The notes beneath the pieces are model-generated. The model had not been told where the DNA came from. It worked only from the letters and a program-made list of their open reading frames with translations, and searched no databases. 64,000 nucleotides of DNA from Flavobacteriaceae bacterium (GTDB lineage Bacteria; Bacteroidota; Bacteroidia; Flavobacteriales; Flavobacteriaceae): contig JALQTJ010000001.1 of NCBI GenBank assembly GCA_023264015.1, positions 103,832-167,831 of the forward strand, read 5' to 3'. A program made the translations under genes and the position numbers. Below, one piece after another: positions 10,333 through 14,502 of this stretch; position 1 is the first letter of the stretch; every line of letters begins with the position of its first letter.

Positions 10333-12675
10333 TTACTTCTCTGTTAGATATGAGATTAATTTCTTGTTTTCTTCAACGGTCCCCACTGATATTCTAAGCG
10401 TATTTTCACAATTGAGTTGGGCGCTTCTATTACGAACCACAAAACCCCTTTCTACCAACGCATTGTATCTAGATGTAGCATCGTCTACCCGCACCAAAAT
10501 AAAATTTGAATCTGATGGAAATACCTTAGAAACCCATAGGCATTGCTCAAGAGCCTTTTTTAATTCCTCTCTTTGTTTTTTCAGCAATTCAATTTCACTA
10601 ACAATGTCCTTTGAGTTTTGAAGACGCTCTAAAGCAACGTTCTGACTCAATGCGTTTACATTGTAAGGAGGTTTAATGCGATTCATCCAGTTGACTAGCT
10701 CTGAGGATGTTACGGCAACACCAAGACGCAACCCGGCTAAGCCATATGCCTTAGAAAGCGTTCGCACTACAATTAGATTTGAATACTTCCCTAACCGTTG
10801 AACTAGCGAAGGACGCTCACTGAAATCTATATAGGCCTCGTCCACTACTACAAGGGTATTTGCCCGCTCTATGACTTGAATAATTTGCTCTAGGTTTAAA
10901 TGATTTCCTGTTGGATTGTTTGGCGAACAAATAAACACCATGGCCGTCATTGGATCTACGCTGGATAACAAGTTATTTGCATCGAGATCAAACTGCTCAT
11001 CTAAACCAACACGACGGTAATGAATGTCGTATTTCTCGGCTAAGACTTGATACATCCCATAAGAAGGATCAATGGCAACCACATTACTCTTCGAAGGCTT
11101 TGCGAACAACTGAAACAACAACTCTAGCACTTCATCACTTCCGTTTCCAATGAAAAGCTGACTGCGGTCAACTTCCCATAATTCAGCTAATTTCTCCTTC
11201 AACAGCATTTGTTGTGGATCAGGATAGCGATTGCGACCCGTATTAAATGGATTTTCGTTCGCATCTAACCAGGTGTAATCTTTGTTCTTGTCTTTAAATT
11301 CATCTCTGGCCGAACTGTAAACTTCAGCGGTTCTTAAATGAGGTTGAATTCGTTCTTTAAGGTTAAACTTCGGTTCTTGAATAGAATTTCCTTTAAGGAA
11401 CTCAAGACGCTTGGTGACAGCCCTTTCATGAGCCGTTAAAGATTCTGCTCTAGCCATTTCCTCTATCGCAGGTCCAAGTGTTGTAATACCCAAAGAGCTA
11501 ATGCGTTGAAAGGTTATCGCTTTTAAATAGCTGTCTAGGTTTACCCCGCTATATTGTCTAGCAAATCCATTGGTCGGCAATGTGTGGTTGGTTCCCGAAG
11601 CATAGTCTCCTGCACTTTCTGGAGTGAAATTTCCAACAAATACAGATCCGGCATTTCGAACGTGTTCGAGCATGATCTCAGGATACTCACTGGCAATGAT
11701 ATAATGCTCTGGAGCGTAGTAATTGATAAAGTCAGCAGCAGTCTTAGCATCATTAAAAACAACTGTTCTGCTATTCTCTAAGGCATCCTTAGCAAACCCT
11801 TTACGACTAAGCGATTCGAGTTGTACGTCAAGTTCTTTGTTTACTTTCTCAGAAAGCGACGCATCGGTGGTCACCAATACTACCTGACTGTCAGACCCGT
11901 GTTCTGCTTGACTTAACAAGTCAGCTGCTATAAAAGAAGGTATTGACGTCTCATCGCCATAAACCAGTAACTCACTAGGGCCGGCAGGCATATCAATTGC
12001 TACCCACTTTTGAGCCGCATACTGCTTCGCGGCAGTGACATATTGATTACCTGGACCAAAAATCTTGTAGACTTTAGAAACTGATTCTGTACCGATAGCC
12101 AATGCCGCTATAGCCTGTACCCCTCCTAAAGGGTGAACTGATGAAACTCCGCACAACTTGGCTGCGTATAGAATTTCAGGTGCAATCGGCCTATCGGCCT
12201 GTTGCGGGGTACAGAGTACAATTTCTTTACAGCCCGCAATAGTTGCAGGAATAGCGAGCATCAACACCGTAGAAAACAAAGGTGCTGTTCCTCCTGGAAT
12301 GTAAATACCTACTTTCTCAATAGGCGTCTTTTTTTGCCAACACGAAACGCCTTGCTGCGTTTCTATGTAAACCTCTGAAGTGCGCTGAGCCTCATGAAAG
12401 TGTCTTATATTTTGCGCTGCAGTCTGAATAGCATTTTTAAGCGTTTCTGAGAGCTTTTCTGCTGCTTCATCAATTTCAGAAGTACTAACTCGCAATGCTG
12501 ACAGCTTAGCCTTGTCGTATGTATGTGCAAATTCAATGAGTGCCTTGTCGCCTCGTTTTTCAACCTCTTGAAAAACACGCTCTACAAGCGTGTTGAGTTC
12601 GCTGTAATCCCTTGTTGGGCGCTCGATTAAGGCTTCCCAACTTTTCGGTTCTGGATTAACAAAACACTTCATCAC
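10333..12675 (-). CDS. hisDC: fused histidinol dehydrogenase - histidinol-phosphate aminotransferase
   Basis: One uninterrupted 780 aa ORF: HisD (IDMPAGPSELLVYGDETS, NHTLPTNGFARQYSGVNLDSY) then HisC (DANENPFN, FICSPNNPTGNHLN, LSKAYGLAGLRLG) joined by a short linker (LKGNSIQEPK). Confidence 0.93.
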   Translation of the reverse strand: MMKCFVNPEPKSWEALIERPTRDYSELNTLVERVFQEVEKRGDKALIEFAHTYDKAKLSALRVSTSEIDEAAEKLSETLKNAIQTAAQNIRHFHEAQRTSEVYIETQQGVSCWQKKTPIEKVGIYIPGGTAPLFSTVLMLAIPATIAGCKEIVLCTPQQADRPIAPEILYAAKLCGVSSVHPLGGVQAIAALAIGTESVSKVYKIFGPGNQYVTAAKQYAAQKWVAIDMPAGPSELLVYGDETSIPSFIAADLLSQAEHGSDSQVVLVTTDASLSEKVNKELDVQLESLSRKGFAKDALENSRTVVFNDAKTAADFINYYAPEHYIIASEYPEIMLEHVRNAGSVFVGNFTPESAGDYASGTNHTLPTNGFARQYSGVNLDSYLKAITFQRISSLGITTLGPAIEEMARAESLTAHERAVTKRLEFLKGNSIQEPKFNLKERIQPHLRTAEVYSSARDEFKDKNKDYTWLDANENPFNTGRNRYPDPQQMLLKEKLAELWEVDRSQLFIGNGSDEVLELLFQLFAKPSKSNVVAIDPSYGMYQVLAEKYDIHYRRVGLDEQFDLDANNLLSSVDPMTAMVFICSPNNPTGNHLNLEQIIQVIERANTLVVVDEAYIDFSERPSLVQRLGKYSNLIVVRTLSKAYGLAGLRLGVAVTSSELVNWMNRIKPPYNVNALSQNVALERLQNSKDIVSEIELLKKQREELKKALEQCLWVSKVFPSDSNFILVRVDDATSRYNALVERGFVVRNRSAQLNCENTLRISVGTVEENKKLISYLTEK

Positions 12676-13529
12676 AAGAACATTTTTTCAATACTACTCA
12701 CCAAAATCCCCTCAGCCCCGTTTTCTTTTAGCTTTTCAATGACTTGCCAAAACGTTTTCTCTTCAATAACCGTGTGAACTGAAACCCAATCCTTATCTGC
12801 CAATGGAAGTACGCTTGGACTCCGCATTCCAGGAAGTAATCGTACAACCGCGTCTAGGTTAGCCTTTGGAACGTTCATGAGCACATACTTATGCCCTCTT
12901 GCGCGTAAAACCCCTCTAAGTCTAAAAAGAAGGTCTACTATACGAGGATCTTCTGCTTTACAAAGTGGAGATAGTGCCAGAACTGCTTGGCTTTTTAATA
13001 ATACCTCAACCTCTTTTAAGTTGTTTTTAAAAAGCGTGCTTCCACTACTTACGATATCGCAGATAGCATCTGACAAGCCTATATTTGGCGCGATCTCAAC
13101 TGATCCATTGATGACGTGAATATCTGCATCAATGCTGTTCTTAGATAAGAATCCTTTAACGGTATTAGGATAAGAAGTAGCAATGCGTTTACCGTCTAGA
13201 TCTTTTACCGAATTGAAATTACTTCCTTTGGGTACAGCGATGGATACACGACACTTTGAAAAGCCAAGACGCTCAATAACTGGTATTTCATCTCCTTTCT
13301 CCACCAAAAGATTCTCCCCAATGATCGCCAGATCTACCACCCCATCTTTGAGATAATTAGGAATATCTCCATTTCTGAGGTAATACACCTCTAAGGGATA
13401 GGTGTGCGATTCTACCTTTAGCTGGTCTTTGCCGTTGAACAAAGAGATGCCAGCCTCTTTTAGCAAGGCAAGAGAGTCTTCATTAAGTCTCCCTGATTTC
13501 TGAATTGCGATTTTTAATCTCTCACTCAT
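12672..13529 (-). CDS. hisG: ATP phosphoribosyltransferase (long form)
   Basis: LKIAIQKSGRLNEDSLALL, DLAIIGENLL, C-terminal regulatory domain. Confidence 0.96.
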   Translation of the reverse strand: MSERLKIAIQKSGRLNEDSLALLKEAGISLFNGKDQLKVESHTYPLEVYYLRNGDIPNYLKDGVVDLAIIGENLLVEKGDEIPVIERLGFSKCRVSIAVPKGSNFNSVKDLDGKRIATSYPNTVKGFLSKNSIDADIHVINGSVEIAPNIGLSDAICDIVSSGSTLFKNNLKEVEVLLKSQAVLALSPLCKAEDPRIVDLLFRLRGVLRARGHKYVLMNVPKANLDAVVRLLPGMRSPSVLPLADKDWVSVHTVIEEKTFWQVIEKLKENGAEGILVSSIEKMFL

Positions 13530-13533
13530 AGGT

Positions 13534-13572
13534 AAAAAATTAAGGCCCGAATGAATGCTTCAAACGGGCCTT
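13534..13572 (-). terminator. intrinsic terminator/attenuator hairpin between the his leader peptide and hisG
   Basis: Minus strand AAGGCCCG TT TGAA GCA TTCA TT CGGGCCTT AA TTTTTT: 8-bp GC-rich stem, 2x2 internal loop, 4-bp upper stem, then T6 (13539-13534). Confidence 0.88.
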
Positions 13573-13596
13573 TAGTGAATATATTAGACAACACCA

Positions 13597-13650
13597 TTAA
13601 CTCGTCTGAGCGGAGCAAAAAATATGGTGATGTGTGTGATTTAAAAACAT
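13597..13650 (-). CDS. hisL: histidine operon leader peptide MFLNHTHHHIFCSAQTS (17 aa)
   Basis: ATG TTT TTA AAT CAC ACA CAT CAC CAT ATT TTT TGC TCC GCT CAG ACG AGT TAA; four His codons within five, directly upstream of a terminator and hisG. Confidence 0.88.
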   Translation of the reverse strand: MFLNHTHHHIFCSAQTS

Positions 13651-13654
13651 AAGA

Positions 13655-13685
13655 CAAAAGTAAACTTCTATTTTGACTTACAAAA
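13655..13685 (-). promoter_or_regulatory. his operon promoter (TTTTG-N18-TACTTTTG)
   Basis: Minus strand -33 TTTTG (13685-13681), 18-nt spacer, -7 TACTTTTG (13662-13655), matching Bacteroidetes TTTG-N(~19)-TANNTTTG; 4 nt upstream of the leader ATG. Confidence 0.82.
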
Positions 13686-13686
13686 T

Positions 13687-14502
13687 TTAATTATTCCCGA
13701 GAATTAAGGGTAAACCGCTATCTCCTGATCCTACCACTACAACTTTACTGTTTGGAGATTCCGAAAGCTTAAGCGTAGCATCTATCCCTTTATCTTGCAA
13801 AATTTTATCCGTCAATGAAGCGCTTAGAATACGGTTCGCATCTGCTTTTCCTTTCGCTTCGATGCGCTGACGTTCGGCCTCCTTTTCAGCAGTCACAAGG
13901 CGAAACTCATACTCTAAAGTTTCTTGCTCTTGCCTTAACTTCTTTTCAATAGCCTCGCGAATGGTCGGAGGAAGGGTAACGTCTCTTACCAGAATTTCAT
14001 TCAGTTGAATATACTGGTCATCAACAATCATTTTGGTCTCAGTGAATATTTCTTGCTGAATGGCATCTCGTTTAGAAGAATAGAGTTGTTCAGGGGTATA
14101 ACGCCCGACAACACTTCGTGCAGCCGAACGAATAGCCGGCAACAAAATACGATTGACGTATTGCTCACTCTTTTCTTGATGGAGCTTTCCTAAAGTCTCG
14201 TACTTTGGTTGAAACCAAGCTGAGGCATCGATTTGAATTTCAAGTCCATTCGATGAGAGCACCTTCATCTTCTCAAAAAGCTCTTGTTGACGTACCTCAT
14301 AAACAAAAACCCGGTTCCAAGGTGCTACGATATGAAAACCTTCGCCTAAGGGGCCTTCGTCAGTGACTACCCCACCACCAAAAGTTCTATACAACACACC
14401 TGCCTGACCAGATCCAATAGTAATGGCAGATTTAGAAATCAGGATGATTAAGACAAAAAAGCCTAAGATTCCTGGCAATACGTATTTCGGTAATCGTTCC
14501 AT
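13687..14502 (-). CDS. prohibitin/SPFH (band 7) family protein
   Basis: N-terminal TM, SPFH domain with LSSNGLEIQIDASAWFQP, AARSVVGRYTPEQLYSSKRDAIQQEI. Confidence 0.87.
   Translation of the reverse strand: MERLPKYVLPGILGFFVLIILISKSAITIGSGQAGVLYRTFGGGVVTDEGPLGEGFHIVAPWNRVFVYEVRQQELFEKMKVLSSNGLEIQIDASAWFQPKYETLGKLHQEKSEQYVNRILLPAIRSAARSVVGRYTPEQLYSSKRDAIQQEIFTETKMIVDDQYIQLNEILVRDVTLPPTIREAIEKKLRQEQETLEYEFRLVTAEKEAERQRIEAKGKADANRILSASLTDKILQDKGIDATLKLSESPNSKVVVVGSGDSGLPLILGNN

Follow-up and report, generated by a model that had tools for sequence, protein, structure and literature searches.

A conserved leader and terminator upstream of hisG in Flavobacteriaceae form a predicted ribosome-mediated attenuator with counterparts across Bacteroidia

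Within the 64,000-nucleotide stretch of Flavobacteriaceae DNA analysed here (the window), the histidine operon is preceded by an element that is highly likely to be a ribosome-mediated transcription attenuator of that operon. Its His-codon leader, its three conserved helices (1:2, 2:3 and 3:4), a fixed spacing between the control codons and a pairing arm, and its position before hisG all support the classical his attenuation that a preliminary description of this DNA had proposed. As judged by sequence comparison, the switch is conserved across Bacteroidia, and it is not catalogued as an RNA family in Rfam. The features of the locus are collected in Table 1.

Table 1. Features of the his leader region and the first operon genes, in window coordinates.
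Feature	Position	Strand	Details
Predicted sigma-A promoter	13655..13685	-	TTTTG 13685-13681; -7 box TACTTTTG 13662-13655
Leader peptide ORF	13597..13650	-	MFLNHTHHHIFCSAQTS + TAA; 17 codons; ATG at 13650; His codons 5, 7, 8, 9
His codons 7-9 (control codons, region 1)	13624..13632	-	Sequence; 17-nt spacing to the antiterminator arm
Antiterminator 5' arm (region 2)	13603..13609	-	UCAGACG; within leader codons 14-16
Post-stop segment	13589..13597	-	Partner of the His codons in the 1:2 helix, or inner part of the antiterminator
Terminator 5' arm (region 3)	13560..13572	-	Stem strand AAGGCCCG 13572-13565; contains CGUUUGA 13566-13560, also the antiterminator 3' arm
Terminator 3' arm and T6 run (region 4)	13534..13549	-	CGGGCCTT 13549-13542; T6 13539-13534; sequence, folding and pairing in relatives
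hisG	12672..13529	-	First gene of the controlled operon; ATG at 13529; Pfam HisG (E 4.8e-48), HisG_C (7e-30)
hisD-hisC fusion	10333..12675	-	Second operon gene; hisB, hisH and hisA follow

The operon runs on the minus strand in the order hisG, hisD-hisC fusion, hisB, hisH and hisA, and the HisG encoded in the window shares 96% identity with its counterpart in the metagenome-assembled Flavobacteriaceae isolate JM.27. The fusion is one 780-codon frame with a Histidinol_dh domain (residues 18-424) and an Aminotran_1_2 domain (478-776). The HisD frame likewise continues into HisC at loci L032-L035 and stops after HisD at L037 and L042; the fusion looks like the marker of a small clade.

The promoter box TACTTTTG, the 4-nt gap between it and the leader ATG, the 17-codon frame with His codons at positions 5, 7, 8 and 9, the GC-rich hairpin and hisG all lie where the preliminary description had placed them. 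Four of the 17 leader codons are thus codons for the amino acid that the operon makes, and this property is conserved. Among the 1272 open reading frames of 8-30 amino acids on both strands of the window, the leader is the only one with four or more His within six residues. An identical peptide is encoded at a locus whose hisG is 96% identical (L032), and other hisG loci have His-rich counterparts. A sigma-70 scan found no match at the leader, its consensus being unsuited to this phylum. Of 75 relatives, 46 have a TAnnTTTR box whose end lies 7-8 nt upstream of the leader start. According to a transcriptome report, the TAnnTTTG box of Flavobacterium psychrophilum spans -12 to -5, and 5.5% of the mRNAs are leaderless (PMC9723704). 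From this box position we predict that transcription in the window starts with the A of the leader AUG and that most relatives have 3-4 nt before the AUG.

Conservation was assessed at several levels. HisG was used to scan GTDB genomes, which yielded 80 loci; within the family, hisG was found in 126 of 151 genomes; and 75 divergent Flavobacteriaceae leaders were aligned (alignment A2). At nearly every locus examined a leader such as MRNNNTHHHFYTCAQAR and then a terminator such as AACCCGTTTGAGCAATCAAACGGGTTTTTT stand upstream of hisG. The preliminary description had named a lack of conservation in relatives as grounds for rejecting its proposal; the His leader, the hairpin and the pairings are clearly kept. 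Three mutually exclusive helices are retained in the 75 leaders, namely 1:2, the antiterminator (2:3) and the terminator (3:4). The motif-plus-arm pattern CTCARGYGAG..CCGTTTGA occurs in 22 of 61 genomes and nearly always adjoins hisG, while a reversed control gave no match. Searched for before other operons, this pattern proved to belong essentially to hisG alone, and a single match among the 22, located at the end of a contig in genome G049, was not tied to hisG.

The terminator lies between the leader and the first gene and is the best preserved of the helices, with 99.3% of cells paired in the 75 leaders, 11 double-change cells against 1.2 in shuffles, and a T run. In the window the hairpin and the T6 run are both present as first described, except that two A's intervene between the stem and the T6 run, which ends 4 nt upstream of the hisG ATG. 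Folding of the 129-nt leader-terminator RNA, a check suggested at the outset, showed it to be more stable than its shuffles (z = -3.75). A simple terminator scan did not call the window hairpin, its consensus being unsuited to the phylum or to the loop. At three loci (L049, L083 and L109) extra sequence separates the terminator from hisG, and the distance to the gene is freely variable.

The preliminary description had seen no strong antiterminator and suggested that the switch may differ from the enterobacterial one. An antiterminator is present, its arm being hidden inside the last codons of the leader ORF, where UCAGACG pairs with the CGUUUGA of the first terminator arm. In relatives the corresponding motif in the last leader codons is UCARGCG, the complement of the same CGUUUGA. 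When the RNA was folded from the motif to the first terminator arm, nearly all sequences gave one long hairpin with an AU-rich inner stem; the stem around it is formed by CUCARGCG, a bulged A and GGU on one side and by ACC and CGUUUGAG on the other. The mean z for this segment is -4.65, and 94.7% of the helix cells are paired in the 75 leaders, as compared with 22-54% in slid controls. Within the family the arms vary too little for much covariation. The antiterminator and the terminator share the CGUUUGA arm, so that they exclude each other. An extension of the antiterminator by pair 52-120 was dropped, as it is not conserved. At L004, L039 and other Salinimicrobium loci the arm has UU in place of AA (CUCUUGCG), giving a 2x2 mismatch with the flanking pairs kept. 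At two Maribacter loci (L078 and L088), where the element lies about 100 nt upstream of hisG, a premature TAG falls in the arm (CUUAGGCG), and the peptide is shorter while the arm keeps its pairing with CGUUUGAG.

In the 1:2 helix CAUUUUUAC.CUUGC, from the end of the His region, pairs with GCGAGGUAAAAAUG across the stop codon. The stem noticed at the outset, in which CATCACCAT (13632-13624) faces ATGGTGTTG (13597-13589) with 8 of 9 positions paired, was confirmed and is the version of this helix found in the window. RNAalifold returned no consensus 1:2 structure on the 75 aligned leaders, probably because the varying number of His codons shifts the alignment, and the helix was therefore counted explicitly. 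Counted in this way, 79.9% of its cells are paired (slid controls, 36-56%), with 40 double-change cells against 16.6. The stop codon in the helix matches the leader codon that it faces: UGA goes with a C-initial (CAY) codon in 16 of 20 cases, and UAA or UAG with a U-initial codon in 42 of 43 (Fisher 2e-10, uncorrected). Since the HisG tree offers only three well-supported independent contrasts, which go nearly always in the expected direction, this covariation is suggestive.

The distance between the control codons and the antiterminator arm is nearly invariant. Measured from the start of the final His codon of the run, the distance to the arm is exactly 17 nt in 72 of 75 leaders, whether there are three or four His codons. 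With this spacing, the arm would lie clear of a ribosome stalled on His and beneath a ribosome positioned at the stop codon. We modelled these positions with a ribosome footprint of 12 nt past the first A-site base, a textbook value that was assumed. Placing the ribosome on either the first or the last His of the run makes the antiterminator the lowest-energy structure of the nascent RNA in all 75 leaders; when the ribosome is at the stop codon, the antiterminator forms in none of them and the terminator in all 75. Once the transcript is complete, the terminator is the more stable structure in 70 of 75 even when the ribosome sits on the last His, so the switch must be kinetic, with the antiterminator winning by forming first. 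With no ribosome, 44 of 75 leaders, that of the window included, have the antiterminator as their best nascent fold, and most of the others form a 1:2-type hairpin; the modelled default state in the absence of translation is therefore uncertain.

Codon usage at the end of the leader also bears on the arm. Ten different amino acids are encoded by the codon whose third position is U54, and this position is U in 74 of 75 leaders; the leader Ala codon is GCG in 69 of 70 cases, compared with 15% in hisG. The bases of the antiterminator arm are constrained as RNA pairing and not as peptide.

From this anatomy we infer the following course of events. RNA polymerase would start at the leader AUG or a few bases from it. 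When charged tRNA-His is short, the leading ribosome would stall on His codons 7-9, leaving UCAGACG free to pair with CGUUUGA as soon as the latter is made; formation of the antiterminator would block the terminator, and hisG would be transcribed. A ribosome that reaches the stop codon would instead cover the UCAGACG arm. In the absence of a stalled ribosome, pairing of the His codons with the post-stop segment may keep the arm out of the antiterminator.

We then looked beyond the family. A covariance model (R1) searched against other families of the class gave strong matches in other Bacteroidia families (E to 1e-16); among the best 30 loci a leader was present in 29, and a HisG reading frame follows the leaders. 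In 40 hisG upstream regions sampled across Bacteroidia, all outside the family of the window, a His-rich short ORF was found in 30, accompanied by a stable terminator in 24. The arms change together across families, with the pairs UCARGCG/CGUUUGA, UCAGGCG/CGUCUGA, GGUAAGC/GCUUACC and GCGGGCC/GGCUCGC found in different groups, and in most Bacteroidia groups the sequence that pairs with the terminator arm is no more than about 20 nt away from the leader stop codon. In 26 representatives the pairing of leaders with their own arm is better than any obtained by swapping arms in 20000 permutations, a comparison that overstates independence because groups share arms by descent. Outside Bacteroidia, 18 regions give a partial picture, with a leader and terminator in one family (f84) and nothing in most. 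In another family of the same phylum (f91, loci L234 and L238), His-rich short ORFs with 10 His stand upstream of hisG without an obvious terminator, and perhaps represent another kind of control.

Other readings of the element have to be weighed against these data. The hairpin could act on translation, hiding the hisG start region so that the leader controls hisG initiation instead of termination; the compact layout of the window, where T6 all but abuts the hisG ATG, and the similar layouts of L032 and L033 would suit such a role. In most relatives, however, the hairpin lies several tens of nucleotides or more upstream of hisG and is directly followed by a T run, the signature of intrinsic termination, and we regard control of initiation as improbable. 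It is less probable still that the end of the leader peptide (AQAR or AQAS) is a nascent-chain arrest signal with RNA pairing secondary. The C-terminal residues are indeed conserved in most leaders, yet conservation is strongest at wobble positions while the amino acids vary. Moreover, the premature stop in the two Maribacter leaders removes QAR and leaves the pairing of the arm intact, and in other families a different arm and peptide end go with a different terminator arm.

We give almost no credence to the idea that the hairpin merely terminates transcription of the Band 7 gene upstream and that the His-rich ORF is an accident. That gene does end about 115 nt short of the hairpin, at 13687, but the conservation of the promoter box, the leader and the three alternative helices tracks hisG, and no other such His-rich ORF exists in the window. 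Transcription attenuation by the leading ribosome is the reading that we retain.

Among known systems, the his attenuator of E. coli and Salmonella (the Rfam His leader) shares the His-codon leader before hisG, the alternative antiterminator and terminator hairpins and the readout of ribosome position. The element described here differs in having no sequence match to it, only 3-4 His codons in the run, an antiterminator arm inside the leader ORF and a predicted near-leaderless start. The enterobacterial version also has an extra hairpin (PMC1183508), whereas the flavobacterial layout is a simple 1:2/2:3/3:4 scheme without it. That three-helix scheme is the one of the E. coli trp attenuator, except that His codons replace Trp codons and region 2 occupies the final leader codons, beside the stop codon. 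A design close to this arrangement of region 2 has been predicted to give low basal read-through (PMC1183508). At the Rfam gathering score neither the window nor ten relatives matched any model, including the His leader and the Bacteroid-trp RNA (RF01692, PMC2864571); the latter is likewise a predicted cis-regulatory RNA of Bacteroidetes, and by its name serves a different operon, trp. A search of 13500-13700 at E up to 10 returned chance-level matches and none to the His leader, Bacteroid-trp or T-box families.

Attenuators of his genes have been credited to Proteobacteria and Firmicutes (PMC9413887, PMC2965389). Those of Firmicutes likewise combine short His-codon leaders with a terminator and antiterminator before his genes; they belong to another phylum, and the two papers do not mention Bacteroidetes. 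A 2021 survey of Bacteroidota his genes mentions attenuation, in its accessible text, only for enterobacteria (PMC8305728). The 2021 transcriptome of F. psychrophilum reports structured 5' elements before hisG and pheA and clues for leader-peptide attenuation upstream of amino-acid operons; as here, the hisG element is conserved in other genera of the family and absent from Rfam (PMC9723704). It is very probably the same element, and the available sections of that report, unlike the present analysis, describe neither an antiterminator nor a spacing rule, nor any occurrence outside the family. Attenuators of Bacteroidetes may also be listed by Lopatovskaya et al. (2010, Mol Biol).

Taken as a whole, a precise model for the class, with a fixed 17-nt rule within Flavobacteriaceae, makes the element a family that could be deposited in Rfam, and the attenuator model would explain the structured 5' element already present in the F. 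psychrophilum transcriptome data. We suggest, tentatively and at somewhat less than even confidence, that the leader is translated from a leaderless transcript, ribosomes loading the switch at a bare 5' AUG with no Shine-Dalgarno sequence, and that one his attenuator design, with the antiterminator arm in or next to the leader stop codon, has been kept through Bacteroidia while its sequence was replaced several times. An attenuator of this kind would imply that translation and transcription are tightly coupled in a phylum where Shine-Dalgarno initiation is hardly used.
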